From a virus: DNA of 22,335 nt. Below are positions 1,149-22,173 of this stretch, one piece after another; positions within the stretch are counted from its first letter, which is position 1; every line of letters begins with the position of its first letter. The translations under genes and the position numbers were made by a program. The stretch is from the IMG/VR virus record IMGVR_UViG_3300032240_000637, positions 1-22,335 of that record, one strand, 5' to 3'. The notes under the pieces were generated by a model. The model saw nothing but the letters and a program-made list of their open reading frames with translations. It made no database searches and had not been told where the DNA came from.

Positions 1149-2361
1149 TATTACCGTAGTGAATTACTTTGTAATCTTTGTTATTTAGATCAAAAGTTCT
1201 CCAAGGGTCAATTACGATTGACCCTTTTTCTATTATGCAATAAAGATCTTGTTGTTCTTCAAAGCCACGATATTCGTAGGTAACTTTTTTGTTGTGTGCT
1301 AACAGAACAACACCATATACTCCGCCCATATCATCACCAGTAAGTGGATCGATATACGTAGGCGCATATCCTAACTGCTCGCAGTAGTGTCCAATTAATA
1401 AACTATAACTGCCATCGAGATATTCTACATCAGGTTTATAGGCCTTACCGTGGATAAAGATCGACATTCTATTTTGCTTGGCGTGTCTAACTAATTCTTT
1501 AGCAAGATTTTCTGCTTGTATTTCGCGAGCATTCATAATACTATCAAACAGATCATACCCTAGACCTAGCTCTTGTGCCATATATCGTAGAGCAATATTA
1601 TCCCTAGGATGGCAAGCACCACCGTCTCCCATACCAGCTTTCATATACTGTGGTCCCATAATACGCATTGTTGATTTAGCCAGTGCATCTGTTACTACAT
1701 CCACATTGATATTGCCCTGTTTGATAGCAACATCCTGTATCATATTGACGAGACCAATTTTAGCAGAGATGAAAGTATTGTAGAATACTTTGATACACTC
1801 ACACTCGTCCCAGGTTCCAATAACATAACGAGGTTCATTCTCCATAACAGTCTTGTAAAAATCTACTAACTGTTTTGCATCTCCGGTTTCGTTACCATCT
1901 TCTGTGCCAATCATTACCATTTCAGGATTAACCATATCCCAGGCTACTGATCCCATAGCAATCAAATATGGATTATAGATAAATCTAGTATTAGTAACGT
2001 GCTTAACAAATTCACGTCTTACTGTTCCCGGAAGTACTGTAGATATAAGAACTAGTAACTGATCTTTTTTCATATACTTGTTTGCTTCTTTGAGGCACCC
2101 TATGACAATATGGTAAGAAAAGTCTTTTGGTTCTAAATGAGCTGTAGGCGCCCTGCCGTCATATGCAGGATCGTGAGGAGTAGGCACTGCAATGAATACA
2201 ATGTCTTTGCCGTGTACACAGGCCTCTATGCTATCAACGACATCAATGTAATTGCTGTGTCTATCTGTTACATCGTATCCGGTCACTGAATGTCCTTTTT
2301 GAGCAATCGCTTCAGCGCACGGCATTCCTAATTTACCAACTCCAATAAAACCAATCTGCAT
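1138..2361 (-). CDS. UDP-glucose/GDP-mannose dehydrogenase family protein
   Basis: A 407-residue NAD-dependent nucleotide-sugar 6-dehydrogenase, close to the usual length for the family. It would oxidise a UDP- or GDP-hexose to the hexuronic acid in the host cytoplasm. The N-terminal Rossmann motif is GFIGVGKLG (residues 4-12), with VPTP at 59-62 and STVLPGT at 107-113. The central helix carries the family's Lys/Asn/Lys pattern (KVFYNTFISAK, K191, N195, K201). The catalytic cysteine is C250 in GGACHPRD, matching the family motif GGxCxPKD with Arg in place of the usual Lys. ATG 2361 is preceded by GAGG at 2367-2370. The gene diverges from the plus-strand enzyme cluster at 2408 and likely supplies a uronic acid sugar for it. 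The substrate (UDP-Glc, GDP-Man or UDP-HexNAc) cannot be told. Confidence 0.9.
   Translation of the reverse strand: MQIGFIGVGKLGMPCAEAIAQKGHSVTGYDVTDRHSNYIDVVDSIEACVHGKDIVFIAVPTPHDPAYDGRAPTAHLEPKDFSYHIVIGCLKEANKYMKKDQLLVLISTVLPGTVRREFVKHVTNTRFIYNPYLIAMGSVAWDMVNPEMVMIGTEDGNETGDAKQLVDFYKTVMENEPRYVIGTWDECECIKVFYNTFISAKIGLVNMIQDVAIKQGNINVDVVTDALAKSTMRIMGPQYMKAGMGDGGACHPRDNIALRYMAQELGLGYDLFDSIMNAREIQAENLAKELVRHAKQNRMSIFIHGKAYKPDVEYLDGSYSLLIGHYCEQLGYAPTYIDPLTGDDMGGVYGVVLLAHNKKVTYEYRGFEEQQDLYCIIEKGSIVIDPWRTFDLNNKDYKVIHYGNTRA
1203..1229 (+). terminator. Hairpin with UACG tetraloop and T run, terminator of the left plus-strand operon
   Basis: A perfect 10-bp stem (AAGGGTCAAT at 1203-1212 pairing with ATTGACCCTT at 1217-1226) closes a TACG loop, a UNCG-type tetraloop, and is followed by further Ts to 1229. 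It stands 55 bases after the stop at 1148, where the + operon should end. On the opposite strand there is no T run, so it should act only on + transcription. It lies within the 3' coding part of the convergent dehydrogenase gene, covering its GSIVIDP codons. Confidence 0.65.
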
Positions 2362-4392: not shown

Positions 4393-5558
4393 TGGACTAT
4401 CAACAAGACCTCTTTTATAGTAATATTCCACGCGATGGAAAAAACTTCTCTACTAAATTAGGATTTCTACAATCTGAATTAGTAGACTTTTGTTTTCTGT
4501 CTGAAGTAACAACTCCCTACTATATCTATACAGGAACTAATCGTATTGTAAAATTAGAAAATTTAATTTACAGCGAAAAAATTGCAAACAAGATTAACAA
4601 ATTAGGGTTGGGCATTTATCTGTATGAACCGATGTGTTTACGCAAAGGGGATGGTCATAACTGTTCTTTCTACAGTGAATTTAAAAATACCGATACTGAC
4701 ATTCTTTCCGACGAGCTAGATAGTATAGAAATTTTTATTAGAAACAATAATCTAACAAATGTTAATATATACACATCAGATTATAATATAAAAAGACTAC
4801 AATCACAATATCCCAATTTAAATCTATATTGTTTAGATATATTTCTTAGACACAGGTTAGTAAGAAATAAAAAATCTAATAACGAAATTAAAAAGAAATT
4901 CTGGTGTGGCAACTGGCGTTACACTGCACACAGGCATCTTGTTATGTCTTATCTAGTAAACTTAGACGGGAACTATAGTTGGAATGTTAAATGCGACTCT
5001 AGCATACTTAAATCTAATGCGTGGTTTGACGTTGAACAATCGTCTAGAAAGGCTAGACTATTAGAAGGCGCTGATATTTTAAAAGATAAAGTATTTTCAA
5101 TAGATCAAACATTGTCGCCTGTTAGTATAGAATCTGCGGGAGATGTTTATATTCCTGGAGGTAATTCTCCCAAGTACACTGATAGATTTTCTAAAAGCTA
5201 TACCGATTCTTTTTGTGCAGTAATTAACGAAACTCGATATGCACAACCATTAGGATATTTCAGCGAAAAAACTTTAAGTGCAATGTATCATAAGTTGCCT
5301 ATTCTATTAGTAGCACCTCCAAGAAGTCTCGAATATCTAAAGACCTTTGGGTTTAAAACTTTTGATCATTGGTGGGATGAAAGCTACGATCTAGAAGAAG
5401 ATCATCAAACAAGACTAGAGCAAATATTTGATATTATTGACTTTATTAACAGTAAATCTTTAGACGAGTTATGCACTATGTATGAAGAAATGCTGCCAAT
5501 AATAGAACACAATCTATCATTGATTAATACAATACCTTACAATTCGACAGTTTTGTAA
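4392..5558 (+). CDS. Glycosyltransferase-like protein (FSEK family, copy 1)
   Basis: The protein has 388 residues; ATG 4392 overlaps the previous TAA by one base. The C-terminal half shares a clear pattern with two minus-strand genes of this window (7702-8859 and 9640-10878): an Arg/His motif (NWRYTAHRHLVMSYL, ~174-188), then INETRY (278-283), FSEK (290-293), LPILLVAPP, and LKTFGFKTFDHWWDESYD (~316-333). ET...SEK followed by a hydrophobic proline strand resembles the nucleotide-sugar-binding C-terminal domain of GT-B glycosyltransferases such as the GT10 fucosyltransferases. The N-terminal ~160 residues are not shared and likely bind the acceptor. It would add a sugar, perhaps the one modified by the three genes before it. 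The donor and acceptor are unknown. The 3' end overlaps the convergent radical SAM gene by 22 bases. Confidence 0.6.
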   Translation: MDYQQDLFYSNIPRDGKNFSTKLGFLQSELVDFCFLSEVTTPYYIYTGTNRIVKLENLIYSEKIANKINKLGLGIYLYEPMCLRKGDGHNCSFYSEFKNTDTDILSDELDSIEIFIRNNNLTNVNIYTSDYNIKRLQSQYPNLNLYCLDIFLRHRLVRNKKSNNEIKKKFWCGNWRYTAHRHLVMSYLVNLDGNYSWNVKCDSSILKSNAWFDVEQSSRKARLLEGADILKDKVFSIDQTLSPVSIESAGDVYIPGGNSPKYTDRFSKSYTDSFCAVINETRYAQPLGYFSEKTLSAMYHKLPILLVAPPRSLEYLKTFGFKTFDHWWDESYDLEEDHQTRLEQIFDIIDFINSKSLDELCTMYEEMLPIIEHNLSLINTIPYNSTVL

Positions 5559-7702
5559 AATGTAATAGGTTGGTAGTTGGGAGTTTCTACTACGTACTGT
5601 TGATAATCACTCCAATCGCCTTGTCCTTTCCAAGCCCAATCAAAACTCCACTCAGTGGTCTGATTAAGATAAAATTCTTCATTTAACAATTCTTCAAACT
5701 CTTGGTGTGATCGACCTTGTTCTCCCCATACCGGCTTGGCTAATTTCCTAGCACGTTTAGCAGCGTTGCCGTCCATACGAGAATACTCTTGAGCAAAGAA
5801 CGGCCCGTGTCTATGAGATTCTCGTGGATCATTTTCTGTATCGTGGACTTGATTGAATTTAATTTTAAAATCAGCTGTCCATTTACCCGCGTCATCTATA
5901 ACAAAATGATATTCAGCCCAGTACTGTCCGGTACCAAAGTGTCCACCAAATTCTGCTGTATCCAACTCTGGAGAGAAATTAATCGTAATACTGTAACCGC
6001 CACGGGCTCGCCATAAAGTACGAAGTGTAGGCCATATTTCATTTACAAGACTGTCGGCGTAAGGGTTTATGTTTGTCTTGATAATATTATAATCGTACTT
6101 TTCATAAGTTAGGTCTTTGCGAGTAGTATCATTATTAAAAGTTAAATCATAGTGATACTTGGCAAGATCAGGACGTACCGGATAATCAATGTGCTGCTCT
6201 GGTGCAAGATTGTCAACAAGTATGTTGAAACCTTTTACACGAGTAAGCACGTGACTTCCACCTAATTTAAAATCTTTTGTAATCCAAAACCCTAGGTACT
6301 TCTGTCCTGACAGATTAAATCTATCTGGATTCTGTCCTGCGATAGTTTCCGGACCTAGACCAAAGCCCATACCTGTGCCGATATTGTTGATATTCTCATT
6401 ACGCATACGCCATAAGAATGTCATTGTGTCTGCAAAGTCTTGATATGTTTCTGTAGGAAATCCCACGATCCAATTTGTTGCTGCATAGATTCCCACACGC
6501 TTCCCATCGCGGAAGTTTTGTTCCATCTCTGCTACAGTAACACCTTTGTCAATATCATCTAACACTTTTTGACTACCGCTTTCACAACCATAGTTAAGAG
6601 CAATACATCCGCTGTCAGCAAGGTCTTGTAGATAGGCAAGATCCATACGACCATCACACCGAGCATATCCTGTCCATTTGATTTTGAGACCTTTCGCTAC
6701 AACTCCTTTAGCAAAGGCACGTAGTTCTTTTAGATTGCCATTGACTAAGCTATCAATAAACCAAATAATATCTGTACCTTTATTATAATAGAGATATTCT
6801 ATTTCAGATAATGCATCTACTGCCTGACGCTGTCGATACTTCCAAAAATGTGTTTCTTCACAGAATGTACATTTTGCTGTACAGCCGCGGCTTAGTTCAC
6901 TTAGAGCACCGTTGGGTATTTCGTAATCGTTAAAATCTATGCTGGAATAATCTGGCATAGGTAAATTATTTAAATTAATACGTTGTTCTTCTGGCTGTGT
7001 AAGATACTGCGGAGTTGAATGAGTAACCCCCGTTTCAACTTCGTCTAATATTTTTAAAATATTTTGTTCGCCCTCACCATTAACAACATAATTGTAATAG
7101 GGTTCAATTTTAAACCAACCGTGTTGTACATTGCTGCCACCAATTACTATTTTTGCATTAGGTAATTGTTTTCTAAGTTCAGTAATCAACCATTTAGTCG
7201 GTTCTTCACTAAACTGATACATTGAGAATCCAATAACATCAGGTGCGTAGTCTACAATATCCTTGATGTATTCCTTGTATTGTTCCTCAAACAACGGATG
7301 AACAAACTTATAATAATTCTCTCCCACCCATCTCCAACTACTTGCTGGATTCCATAAAGTAAAATTGACAATATTTTTTGGTTTGATATTTAATCTGTAT
7401 TCTCTGTAACATTTAGCATTAACATCTAGTATACGTGTTTGGTATCCTGCTTCTTTAGCCACTGCACTTAGACGTGCAAGGTTGAAAGGTGGAAATCGTG
7501 CAGACCATTCTGGCATCAACACTAATATTAACTTGGTATTTCTACTGGCATAATCAATAGTGACATCTGTAACATTTTTTTGAACACTGGTCTTAGCATA
7601 AGGCGCAATCGCCGCAAGCATAGCCTTGTGACGATCCTCGAGGTCAGCCGGCTTTTCTCTTGGTTCAGACTTATGTTTAAAATTTTTAAAATTAAATCCC
7701 AT
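5537..7702 (-). CDS. B12-binding-domain radical SAM protein with long C-terminal extension
   Basis: The protein has 721 residues. After a basic lead, residues ~57-220 form a cobalamin-binding-type Rossmann domain (PPFNLARLSAVAKEAGYQT, DVIGFSMYQF, KIVIGGSNVQ, YVVNGEGEQNILKIL). The radical SAM domain starts at ~268 with the [4Fe-4S] motif C274-x3-C278-x2-C281 in SRGCTAKCTFCEE, followed by WFIDSLVNGNL, ALNYGCESGSQKVLDDIDKG and IVGFPTET, all typical of B12-radical SAM enzymes (class B methyltransferases and relatives). The last ~270 residues are Trp/Tyr-rich and not recognised (GTGQYWAEYHF, ESHRHGPFFAQEYSRM). The likely reaction is methylation of an unactivated carbon or phosphorus, or a rearrangement, on a sugar or other pathway intermediate. 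ATG 7702 overlaps the upstream TGA by one base (coupled). It is the last gene of the long minus operon. Confidence 0.85.
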   Translation of the reverse strand: MGFNFKNFKHKSEPREKPADLEDRHKAMLAAIAPYAKTSVQKNVTDVTIDYASRNTKLILVLMPEWSARFPPFNLARLSAVAKEAGYQTRILDVNAKCYREYRLNIKPKNIVNFTLWNPASSWRWVGENYYKFVHPLFEEQYKEYIKDIVDYAPDVIGFSMYQFSEEPTKWLITELRKQLPNAKIVIGGSNVQHGWFKIEPYYNYVVNGEGEQNILKILDEVETGVTHSTPQYLTQPEEQRINLNNLPMPDYSSIDFNDYEIPNGALSELSRGCTAKCTFCEETHFWKYRQRQAVDALSEIEYLYYNKGTDIIWFIDSLVNGNLKELRAFAKGVVAKGLKIKWTGYARCDGRMDLAYLQDLADSGCIALNYGCESGSQKVLDDIDKGVTVAEMEQNFRDGKRVGIYAATNWIVGFPTETYQDFADTMTFLWRMRNENINNIGTGMGFGLGPETIAGQNPDRFNLSGQKYLGFWITKDFKLGGSHVLTRVKGFNILVDNLAPEQHIDYPVRPDLAKYHYDLTFNNDTTRKDLTYEKYDYNIIKTNINPYADSLVNEIWPTLRTLWRARGGYSITINFSPELDTAEFGGHFGTGQYWAEYHFVIDDAGKWTADFKIKFNQVHDTENDPRESHRHGPFFAQEYSRMDGNAAKRARKLAKPVWGEQGRSHQEFEELLNEEFYLNQTTEWSFDWAWKGQGDWSDYQQYVVETPNYQPITFYKTVEL

Positions 7703-19236: not shown

Positions 19237-21195
19237 TTAACCGTTAAGAATTGTAAAGGTGCTGATAACCGGACATTCTACTGTAAAGTTTCCAGTGCCG
19301 CTTGGTTGCAGTAGTCCTGAGGCTTCCAATGTAGAAACTACTAATTGAATAATTCCGTCAATGGAGTCAGGGCCGCCAGCAATACCAAGATGATCATCTA
19401 GCCATTCGACTTGAATTTCTAATGATGTTGCTCCACCGTTTACATTGTTTACACCCGGTGTTCTGGCTGACATTTTAAATGAGTTATTTGAATACGGATT
19501 TGATGATGCTACTGTAAAGAATGTTTGGAATGTATTTGTTAAACTGTAAAAATTTCCAACTCCGCTTGATACTACGCCACCTGGAATTGCGCCGCCAAAT
19601 CTCACTGTTCCTACATTCTGTAATAGTGTGGTCCAGGACAGATTCTGTGTACTGCCTGTGCCGCTTGTGCGACTGGTTGTAAAACGTAGTTCTCCGCCAC
19701 TGTTAAAGAAATATCTAGCAGCATCTCCGTTGCTCCACGAAGCACTGACTATGGTGCTTAGTCTTGCAGCCCAAGGAGTATTATAGTTTGCTACCCATAC
19801 TTCTGTCCGTGGCGCTGGCGGGGTCGAACGTGTAATGTATTGACCAGTACCTGGAGAATTCATTCTATTAGATACAATAACGTTGGCATAACTATCGTAT
19901 TGCGAATATGGTGAGTTTATCGCATTAGCTCTAACTAAATTACCTTCGGATATTGCTGTCAATGAAGGTGTTGTATTATATAGATGTAGCCACGAATTAA
20001 AAATATCGTATTTGAGTCTGCTCCATTCTTTGATGGAAACTGTATTACCTTCAGCAACTGCTGAACTTTGAACGATTTGTCCCCATCCCGAATTCCCTAC
20101 ACCTGAACCTAGTACACCAACTACTTTTGCACGAATAAGATTATAATCCGACTGCGAAATTGTCTTTGAAAGAACATTGCTAATGTTACCGATTGAAGAA
20201 TCGCCGACTAAAAATGTTATCGCTGCTTTTCCGTTAGTTAATGATAGTACTACAACTTCATTACCTTCTGTAGTACTATCATTAACTAATGTAATTGTTG
20301 TTGAACCAGTTCCTGTAATTCCGCCATCGGTACTGGTTATAGTAATGCTGCCTGTTAGGCCGCCTGCAAAATCGCTGCCAGTAACACCACCACCGGAAAG
20401 AGTAAATGCTATAACTGACCCATTGGTAACATATTGAGTTTTTAGAGTAACGGTAAGGGTTTCGCCTTCGCTGACACCGGGCTGATTTAATGACAGCGTA
20501 TATACAGGATCAAAGTATTGTATGATAACAACCCCTGTTCCTCCTGCGCCGCCTCCTGCTGAGTCACCGCCACCGCCGCCTCCGCCGCCTAAGTTTGCTC
20601 CGCCGGCTCCGCCACCGCCACTAATTGCACCTACGCCGCCACCGCCTTGTGCTGCTGGAGCACTAACATTAGCTATACCTGTGGTTGTAGTGGAGTCGGC
20701 CCCACCACCACCGCCGCCACCATAATAGGTACCAGTTGTGGGCCATCGATATCCGTCTCCACCACGACCTGGATAATTGCCGGCATTATACCCGCTTTGA
20801 CCAGCACCTGCACCACCACCACCATCATACCTTGCGGCAATTGGACCTGGCGGTGTATAACCATATGCTGCTCCGCCATAATAGTTTGCGGTTACTCCTT
20901 TTAATACTGAACTTGTAGAGCCACCAGCACCTGCATTTGATGCACCTGCTGCGCCTGCTGCTGCTGTTACTGATCCGAATGCTGATGCTTGATTGCTTCC
21001 GCCAACTGTAACTGTAACCGTAGCTCCAACTACTACGTTAGTTGTTAATACTACTTGGCCACCGGCTCCGCCGCCGCCACGATTGGTGCCGCCTGAACCA
21101 CCGCCGCCAACAACAAACACCGTGTCGACTATTGATAATCCTGCCGGTACGGTCCACGTTGTGCTTGAGTTAAATGTTAGTGTGTTTAAGGCCAT
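19237..21195 (-). CDS. Tail-fibre-like adhesin with glycine-rich, Calx-beta-like and fibre-tip domains
   Basis: The protein has 652 residues in three parts. Residues 1-227 are a glycine-rich domain: TLTFNSSTTWTVPAG lead, then runs of GGGG separated by short Ser/Ala/Tyr segments and ending GTGVVIIQYFDP, as in Gly-rich phage adhesins. Residues ~230-335 look like a Calx-beta-type domain (YTLSLNQPGVSEGETLTVTL; FTLSGGGVTGSDF; TLVNDSTTEGNEVVVLSL). Residues ~340-652 are homologous along their length to the next upstream protein, with SQSDYNLIRAKVVGVL, GWGQIVQSSAVAEGN and ARYFFNSGGELRFTTSRT. It would be a distal, receptor-contacting fibre protein. The DNA is locally rich in Gly codons, giving a proline-rich antisense frame that is not a gene. 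A late-box candidate precedes ATG 21195 at 21220-21227. Confidence 0.78.
   Translation of the reverse strand: MALNTLTFNSSTTWTVPAGLSIVDTVFVVGGGGSGGTNRGGGGAGGQVVLTTNVVVGATVTVTVGGSNQASAFGSVTAAAGAAGASNAGAGGSTSSVLKGVTANYYGGAAYGYTPPGPIAARYDGGGGAGAGQSGYNAGNYPGRGGDGYRWPTTGTYYGGGGGGGADSTTTTGIANVSAPAAQGGGGVGAISGGGGAGGANLGGGGGGGGDSAGGGAGGTGVVIIQYFDPVYTLSLNQPGVSEGETLTVTLKTQYVTNGSVIAFTLSGGGVTGSDFAGGLTGSITITSTDGGITGTGSTTITLVNDSTTEGNEVVVLSLTNGKAAITFLVGDSSIGNISNVLSKTISQSDYNLIRAKVVGVLGSGVGNSGWGQIVQSSAVAEGNTVSIKEWSRLKYDIFNSWLHLYNTTPSLTAISEGNLVRANAINSPYSQYDSYANVIVSNRMNSPGTGQYITRSTPPAPRTEVWVANYNTPWAARLSTIVSASWSNGDAARYFFNSGGELRFTTSRTSGTGSTQNLSWTTLLQNVGTVRFGGAIPGGVVSSGVGNFYSLTNTFQTFFTVASSNPYSNNSFKMSARTPGVNNVNGGATSLEIQVEWLDDHLGIAGGPDSIDGIIQLVVSTLEASGLLQPSGTGNFTVECPVISTFTILNG
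20234..20289. repeat. Perfect 21-bp inverted repeat with 14-base spacer inside the tail-fibre gene
   Basis: The arm at 20234-20254 is the exact reverse complement of the arm at 20269-20289; the spacer is 20255-20268. Each arm contains the palindrome AGTACT. On the coding (minus) strand it spans the Calx-beta codons for LVNDSTT, then EGNE, then VVVLSLTN. The mRNA would fold into a 21-bp hairpin in mid-gene. Confidence 0.9.
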
Positions 21196-21231: not shown

Positions 21232-22173
21232 TCAAGTATATGAAATTGCAGATAGTGAATATGTCGGACTTGTGATAGTAAATGCTCCGAACGGATAGAG
21301 TGTTCCGGATGCTTTTGTTTCTTCAACATTGATAGATAAGATACCGTCAACTGAATCGCCGGGAGGGGTGCTCGCAGGATCTGATCCTGGCGCTGCTAAT
21401 GTATCTGGATCTACATACGAATCAATCCAGCTAATTTTAATTACAAGCTGCGTTGCAGTACCGCCGATATTATCAGCAACATTCGATTTGGCTTCTAATT
21501 TAAAACTATTATCGGAGTACGGTGTACTAGATGATCTAACATAAAATGTCTGATAGCTATTTGTTAATTTATAGAAATTAACTATTAAATTTGGATCGGC
21601 ACTAAATGCCTGTGTACCGACTGTTGACAATAAAGATGTCCAGGCACCATTTTGTGCTGTAAGAGCTCCGCCGGTTCTGGTCGAAGTAAATTTAATTTTG
21701 CCGCCGCTATTAAAAAAATATCTAGCGTTATTACTGTTTAGAAAAGTCAAAGTTAATTCACAACTTGCCAATGTACTCCAGGCTGTTTCCAAAGTTCTAT
21801 TGGCTTTTGCACTTAGTACTGTCTGCCCAGGAGCCACTGTAAATCTATTACTTACTGCAATATCTGCCAGTATACTGTAATCAGTATTTGGATTTCCTGG
21901 ACCGTATCTAATCGGTGTTGTTTTTTGTATTTCTACAATTGAAGGTAATACACCATCTTGATGTAGTTTTGCGTTAAGAATATCAAAACGCAGTGCATCC
22001 CATTGAGCTTTAGTTGCAACGTTTCCTTCAGATACCGCTGTGCTTTGTACAGCCTGTCCATAGCCTTTGTCAGCAGATCCGACACCGATAATAGGAATAA
22101 TTTTATTCCTAATAGTATTGTAGTCTAGTGCGCCAATTGGATCACCAGATGCCGTTGCTACAGTTTGTACCAT
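21232..22173 (-). CDS. Tail-fibre-like structural protein (short paralogue)
   Basis: The protein has 313 residues; ATG 22173 comes two bases after the stop of the preceding gene. Its whole length aligns in order with the last ~310 residues of the 652-residue fibre protein: DYNTIRNKIIPIIGVG, GYGQAVQSTAVSEGN, ARYFFNSGGKIKFTSTRT, FYKLTNSYQTFYVRSS, SDNSFKLEAKS and GDSVDGILSINVEE. It begins directly with this module and has no glycine-rich or Calx-beta part. The family resembles virion proteins with fibre or baseplate roles in marine myoviruses. It may form a mixed or alternate fibre with its paralogue. The exact place in the particle is unknown. Confidence 0.75.
   Translation of the reverse strand: MVQTVATASGDPIGALDYNTIRNKIIPIIGVGSADKGYGQAVQSTAVSEGNVATKAQWDALRFDILNAKLHQDGVLPSIVEIQKTTPIRYGPGNPNTDYSILADIAVSNRFTVAPGQTVLSAKANRTLETAWSTLASCELTLTFLNSNNARYFFNSGGKIKFTSTRTGGALTAQNGAWTSLLSTVGTQAFSADPNLIVNFYKLTNSYQTFYVRSSSTPYSDNSFKLEAKSNVADNIGGTATQLVIKISWIDSYVDPDTLAAPGSDPASTPPGDSVDGILSINVEETKASGTLYPFGAFTITSPTYSLSAISYT

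Follow-up and report, generated by a model that had tools for sequence, protein, structure and literature searches.

A very probable Rho-independent terminator of a phage operon lies within the codons of a convergent dehydrogenase gene

Terminators placed inside an opposing gene are a known class in E. coli, where 58 convergent overlaps have been counted, one of the two genes having a Rho-independent terminator in 19 of these overlaps and both genes in 2 (PMC2174442). Convergent transcription units are likewise served by bidirectional terminators, in which an A tract before the stem gives a U tract on both strands (PMC7566282, PMC12207403), and the program TransTermHP, where a gene runs tail to tail into another, extends its search as far as 500 nt beyond the stop of the former (PMC1852404). 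In this paper, we have analysed a 22,335-nt stretch of viral DNA (positions 1 to 22,335 of IMG/VR record IMGVR_UViG_3300032240_000637; hereafter the window), in which the last gene of a + strand operon runs into a dehydrogenase gene on the - strand, and a hairpin with a T run is found within the codons of the latter. Judged from sequence comparison, this element is very probably the intrinsic (Rho-independent) terminator of the operon that ends with the 101-aa gene, dual-coded with the dehydrogenase. The features at the junction are as follows.

1-219, + strand: 72-aa ORF of the same operon, open at the window edge (phrog_13789)
221-850, + strand: 209-aa gene, upstream in the same operon (phrog_15894, function unknown)
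843-1148, + strand: 101-aa gene, function unassigned, the last gene of the operon, presumed to be terminated by the hairpin 54 nt on
1138-2361, - strand: UDP-glucose/GDP-mannose dehydrogenase-like gene (407 aa), convergent, with the hairpin near its 3' end
1203-1226, + strand: hairpin with a perfect 10-bp stem, arms 1203-1212 and 1217-1226, loop TACG at 1213-1216
1225-1229, + strand: T run (U tract), TTTTT at the base of the 3' arm, then CTATTAT
1204-1224, - strand: codons G-S-I-V-I-D-P, dehydrogenase residues 380-386
1201-1203, 1225-1227 and 1228-1230, - strand: flanking codons W, K and E, which together with GSIVIDP cover the hairpin and the T run

The 407-aa dehydrogenase matches PF00984 (E 1.3e-16), PF03721 (E 2.5e-16) and phrog_9148, UDP-glucose dehydrogenase (E 7.1e-98), and no match to the 101-aa protein was found in Pfam or PHROG. 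The stop of the 101-aa gene and the end of the dehydrogenase gene overlap by 11 nt (1138-1148). A run of nine or ten + strand ORFs, with the 101-aa gene as its end, is seen in three loci (L204, L207 and L224). Relatives of the 209-aa protein occur near structural genes in the jumbo phages RaK2 and PA5oct (L329, L330), and it is suggested that the phage of the window shares an operon with the RaK2/PA5oct jumbo-phage group. RaK2 ORF057 was considered as the counterpart of the 101-aa gene, being equal in length and in the corresponding place, but was rejected, as it shows no similarity to the 101-aa protein. Elsewhere in the window, a 388-aa + strand gene and a 721-aa - strand gene form a second convergent overlap of 22 nt (5537-5558), shortly past which the only + strand terminator-like site is a weak one at 5809-5829. 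Two long neighbouring - strand ORFs (19237-21195 and 21232-22173) contain a similar stretch (GSADKGYGQAVQSTAVSEGN and GVGNSGWGQIVQSSAVAEGN), and the former has a glycine-rich N-terminal part and looks like a tail protein by eye.

The + strand sequence of 1201-1230, CCAAGGGTCAATTACGATTGACCCTTTTTC, contains the stem, the loop and the T run. Folding of 1190-1250 gives -13.0 kcal/mol (z -2.49), an equally good fold being reached in 6 of 200 shuffles, and the stem-loop on its own gives -12.4 kcal/mol. Its ten pairs and 4-nt loop lie within the range of intrinsic terminators (about 5-12 pairs, loop of 3-8 nt), its U tract stands directly 3' of the stem on the transcribed + strand, and it is located on the same strand as, and 3' of, the last gene of the transcription unit, 54 nt past the stop at 1148. 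Against the terminator reading, the stem has just 4 G-C pairs and the U tract is interrupted by a C. When both strands of the 22-kb window were searched with strict criteria (8 or more Watson-Crick pairs, 4 or more G-C pairs and 5 or more T in 8 positions), the hairpin at 1203-1226 was the sole match; the average over 40 dinucleotide shuffles was 0.025 sites, with no shuffle reaching 10 pairs. A loose consensus scan of the window, with 13 terminator-like sites against 10.5 +/- 3.2 expected, is uninformative alone. A - strand hairpin, GCCTAAA...TTTAGGC, with a poor T tract was also noticed at 845-864, at the start of the 101-aa gene. The 10-bp stem and + strand T run that an earlier note on this DNA had described are confirmed at 1203-1229. 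The UACG tetraloop of the same description is present at 1213-1216, but it is closed by a U-A pair and is not conserved, the relatives showing AACA, AACG, TATT, GACA or 6-nt loops, and a special UACG loop is rejected on account of this variation. In most relatives the T run reads TTTTTC or TTTCTC, with a weaker tract in three loci (L018, L207 and L209).

The hairpin and the U tract lie entirely within the opposing coding sequence, in the codons of E-K-G-S-I-V-I-D-P-W (residues 378-387), the stem encoding GSIVIDP (residues 380-386) as had been read earlier. The dual-coding reading as such is supported, although it overlooked that the protein motif supplies most of the palindrome. If serine is encoded by TCN, the amino acids fix the pairing of lysine base 2 with tryptophan base 1, of the first base of glycine with the second of proline and vice versa, of serine with aspartate in the same manner, and of the first isoleucine base with the second base of the codon preceding aspartate, and a tenth pair arises if that codon is one for isoleucine. 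K-G-S(TCN)-I-x-x-D-P-W is near-palindromic in its codons (GG/CC, TC/GA, A/T), and the E-K codons (GAA AAA) yield the U tract on the opposite strand. With most of the pairing dictated by the protein in this way, a conserved hairpin could be the shadow of a conserved protein. Three synonymous third-position pairs are free, i.e. 1204-1225 (proline base 3 with lysine base 3), 1207-1222 (aspartate base 3 with glycine base 3) and 1210-1219 (isoleucine base 3 with serine base 3; isoleucine or valine in the relatives).

Occurrence of the stem follows gene order. Relatives of the 101-aa gene were collected, 80 being kept out of 263 (another relatives search kept 80 out of 597); 32 loci among the 80 kept relatives of this gene also hold the dehydrogenase, and the stem lies 47-54 nt past the stop in all 32. 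In a set of 168 distinct dehydrogenase loci, limited to those that have the DPW motif, a stop and a last 300 nt not shared with another locus, the stem is present in 43 of the 45 loci that face the 101-aa gene (perfect in 42, with one G-U in L135), these 45 including the window's own record (L284) and its near twin L001, and 8 Watson-Crick pairs are reached in none of the 113 co-directional loci. The two facing loci without a stem, L019 and L060, have no detectable substitute hairpin with a T run near the junction, and a dehydrogenase that faces another gene (L069) has no stem of this type. The dehydrogenases of Synechococcus phage Bellamy and Pelagibacter phage HTVC008M, of the same enzyme family and 59% and 51% identical, respectively, lie in co-directional operons, unlike that of the window, and their loci (L281, L283) were not matched by the model at any E of 10 or below. 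Among the co-directional loci, L081 carries nine stem pairs, one of them G-U, so that the convergent context is not required for a near-complete stem to arise; its sister L108 scores lower in the model search (21.8 bits, E 0.068). The stem carriers are essentially one clade, so the association with gene order rests on few independent events and by itself weighs little; a tree test of correlated gain and loss found 2 independent pairs on starred branches, without significance.

Orientation was judged from the T run, which is found on the + side alone, the - strand sequence after the stem being GGAGAACTTTT. Three wobbles in otherwise complete stems (L135, L311 and L037) are G-U in the + strand RNA and A-C in the - strand RNA, and, though few, they point to the same strand as the T run. 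None of the six dehydrogenase junctions examined has a strong - strand hairpin. A palindrome of this kind also folds in the dehydrogenase mRNA, and the - strand of the window scores 22.2 bits with the model, which might be taken to mean that the hairpin acts there, e.g. by stabilising the 3' end, by influencing ribosome speed or as an RNase site; we consider this improbable, since the U tract is missing on that side (for which reason a bidirectional terminator is rejected as well), the wobbles become broken A-C oppositions there, and co-directional homologues retain the protein motif, not the stem.

The free positions demonstrate that base pairing is under selection. All viral contigs were scanned for E-K-G-S(TCN)-I-x-x-D-P-W in any synonymous codon, a scan that is blind to the free positions and gives a complete list. 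It found 61 stretches, in 59 of which the 101-aa gene faces the dehydrogenase; all three free pairs are Watson-Crick in 57 of these 59, and the remaining two (L135, L311) have two Watson-Crick pairs and a G-U wobble that pairs in the + strand RNA alone. The single co-directional stretch of the scan (L313) has none of the three pairs, and an incomplete stretch (L293) has all three. In the 43 facing dehydrogenases whose serine is TCN (a set that includes L019 and omits L060, which has an AGY serine, and L284), the lysine-proline, glycine-aspartate and serine-isoleucine/valine pairs are matched in 41, 42 and 41 cases, where the composition of the columns predicts 36.4, 33.4 and 22.5 (for each pair, 0 of 5000 permutations did as well). 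The corresponding counts in 86 TCN homologues that do not face the 101-aa gene, 25, 26 and 32, are those of chance (27.0, 29.0 and 29.7 expected). The glycine-aspartate pair is G:C in 37 of the 43 facing dehydrogenases, and glycine at the stem is mostly written GGG, a codon that accounts for 6% of glycines in the rest of these genes.

These pairs have also changed type repeatedly. On a DNA tree constructed with the motif excluded, the serine pair underwent at least 9 type changes, among A-T, G-C, C-G and T-A, and the glycine and lysine pairs at least 3 each, one change of the latter giving A-C in the sense strand and G-U in the + strand RNA. The covariation score is 0.277 against 0.104 in shuffled alignments, and none of 500 shuffles scored as high. 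In an alignment of the window and 33 of the 61 blind-scan stretches, chosen across variants and exclusively from those facing the 101-aa gene, the 19 distinct rows have all 171 cells of the 9-pair stem paired, 15 of them altered on both sides. Synonymous stem sites in relatives, which the earlier note had proposed as the check on its reading and whose mismatches it had named as grounds for giving it up, therefore speak in its favour, as paired synonymous changes preserve the stem and 57 of the 59 facing stretches keep three pairs out of three. The dual role proposed in that note, i.e. codons of the enzyme and terminator for the genes ending at 1148, is supported by these paired changes, by the link to the convergent neighbour, by the near-fixed distance from the stop and by the T run on the + side, from which we infer that RNA polymerase terminates at the hairpin.

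The end of the 101-aa gene is a variable cargo slot. In the loci L201-L280, the conserved + strand operon meets very different - strand genes there (1138-1148 in the window) with an overlap of about 3 to 28 nt, among them a group sharing LIIGLGDSFT, others sharing CLYPFAAFS, and a 531-aa protein. These opposing genes face the 101-aa gene at nearly equal spacing, and some carry hairpins with a T run of their own while others have none. When all the collected loci were surveyed under strict conditions, their 296 convergent ends gave 36 hairpins with a T run (types sorted by stem substrings), of which 35 are of the dehydrogenase type and one is not (L243), i.e. a comparable perfect hairpin at 1 of 261 other convergent ends; control windows deeper in the opposing genes gave 2 of 599. 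A general habit of these phages is therefore rejected, and, perfect hairpins being rare at convergent ends, the dehydrogenase case is a special solution rather than the rule. A looser, energy-based look at the opposing-gene types at the 101-aa end found a hairpin of -9 kcal/mol or lower with a T run in 7 of 20 types (the dehydrogenase, the L211 group, L213, L243, L245, L256 and L273) versus 3 of 60 inner windows (Fisher p 0.0018), with nothing at L222/L223, L259 and L274. It serves as a hint only, because the cut-off was set after the values had been seen, 2 of the 20 types are co-directional and some types show nothing; the counts were made by hand on the first member of each cluster. Hairpins straddling the junction were also seen in L212, L221 and L234, at the stop of the 101-aa gene, and in L273, with T runs on both strands (e.g. 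AAAGGCTAT...ATAGCCTTT), and for this reason look bidirectional, unlike the dehydrogenase type.

The location of the element, where the 101-aa gene borders on a wide variety of opposing genes, could be read as that of a DNA site, either a dyad bound by a protein or a cruciform for recombination where varied modules face the 101-aa gene. Such a site is highly improbable, since a search of 47 loci whose junction involves some other opposing gene did not find the dehydrogenase-type motif (best score 14 bits, E 1.8), a cruciform needs no one-sided T run, and the sequence of the arms varies while their pairing persists, which fits a structure and not a fixed binding site. That the palindrome is a functionless by-product of a conserved protein motif and codon bias is hardly credible, even though the motif fixes most of the 9 pairs, stems of 6-7 bp occur in homologues without a convergent gene (L140, L096, L121) and L081 comes close to a full one, because the free synonymous pairs exceed chance solely where the 101-aa gene faces the enzyme, sampling codons for the window's peptide with the usage of these genes gives a stem of 9 or more pairs in 1.6% of cases, and cellular loci with KGS..DPW keep all three pairs in none of 8; protein constraint alone is thus rejected by the synonymous controls and the blind scan.

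In the terminator reading, the signal would be written in the C-terminal codons of the dehydrogenase because the overlapping genes leave no room between them. The enzyme motif would supply most of the pairs, the choice of three synonymous pairs would close the 9-bp stem, the E-K codons would supply the U tract opposite, and the + strand transcripts would end by intrinsic termination; the presumable benefit is that these transcripts are kept out of the dehydrogenase gene, which would be spared antisense transcripts. We further suggest, tentatively and with a probability somewhat below even, that the enzyme itself has been altered in sequence to suit the transcription signal of the operon next to it. 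Where the clade reads I-E-K-G-S(TCN)-I, many relatives read I-P-x-[GN]-S-V, often with an AGY serine, and the clade motif may have arisen because the terminator needs the lysine, the TCN serine and the isoleucine. In L037, an isoleucine-to-threonine change converts a mispaired position to a C-G pair.

The junction is thus a clear natural example of a single stretch of DNA that encodes protein on one strand and very probably halts transcription on the other, and its compensated synonymous changes are numerous enough to reveal selection without experiment. What makes the case interesting is the evolutionary proof and the near-palindrome in the protein motif: paired synonymous positions opposite the end of a convergent gene offer a simple test for similar sites, and in phage genomes short of space a protein motif whose codons nearly form a palindrome can provide a terminator ready for use. 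A literature search that covered few subscription journals found no terminator covarying with the codons of a dehydrogenase or another phage gene, and the dehydrogenase member of the class and its codon-level proof appear to be new.

The element is the same as the terminators of the E. coli convergent overlaps in that a hairpin and a U tract lie in the codons of the opposing gene and the genes overlap (PMC2174442). The E. coli set consists of predictions counted in one genome, whereas here one element is tracked through a clade of uncultured phages, and, unlike that set, it has compensated synonymous changes and a conserved enzyme motif that gives most of the stem (PMC2174442). TransTermHP would score such a tail-to-tail site, but it predicts, and makes no joint test of conservation and coding (PMC1852404). 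The dehydrogenase hairpin differs from bidirectional terminators in having no U tract on the - side and in that its stem lies inside a gene.
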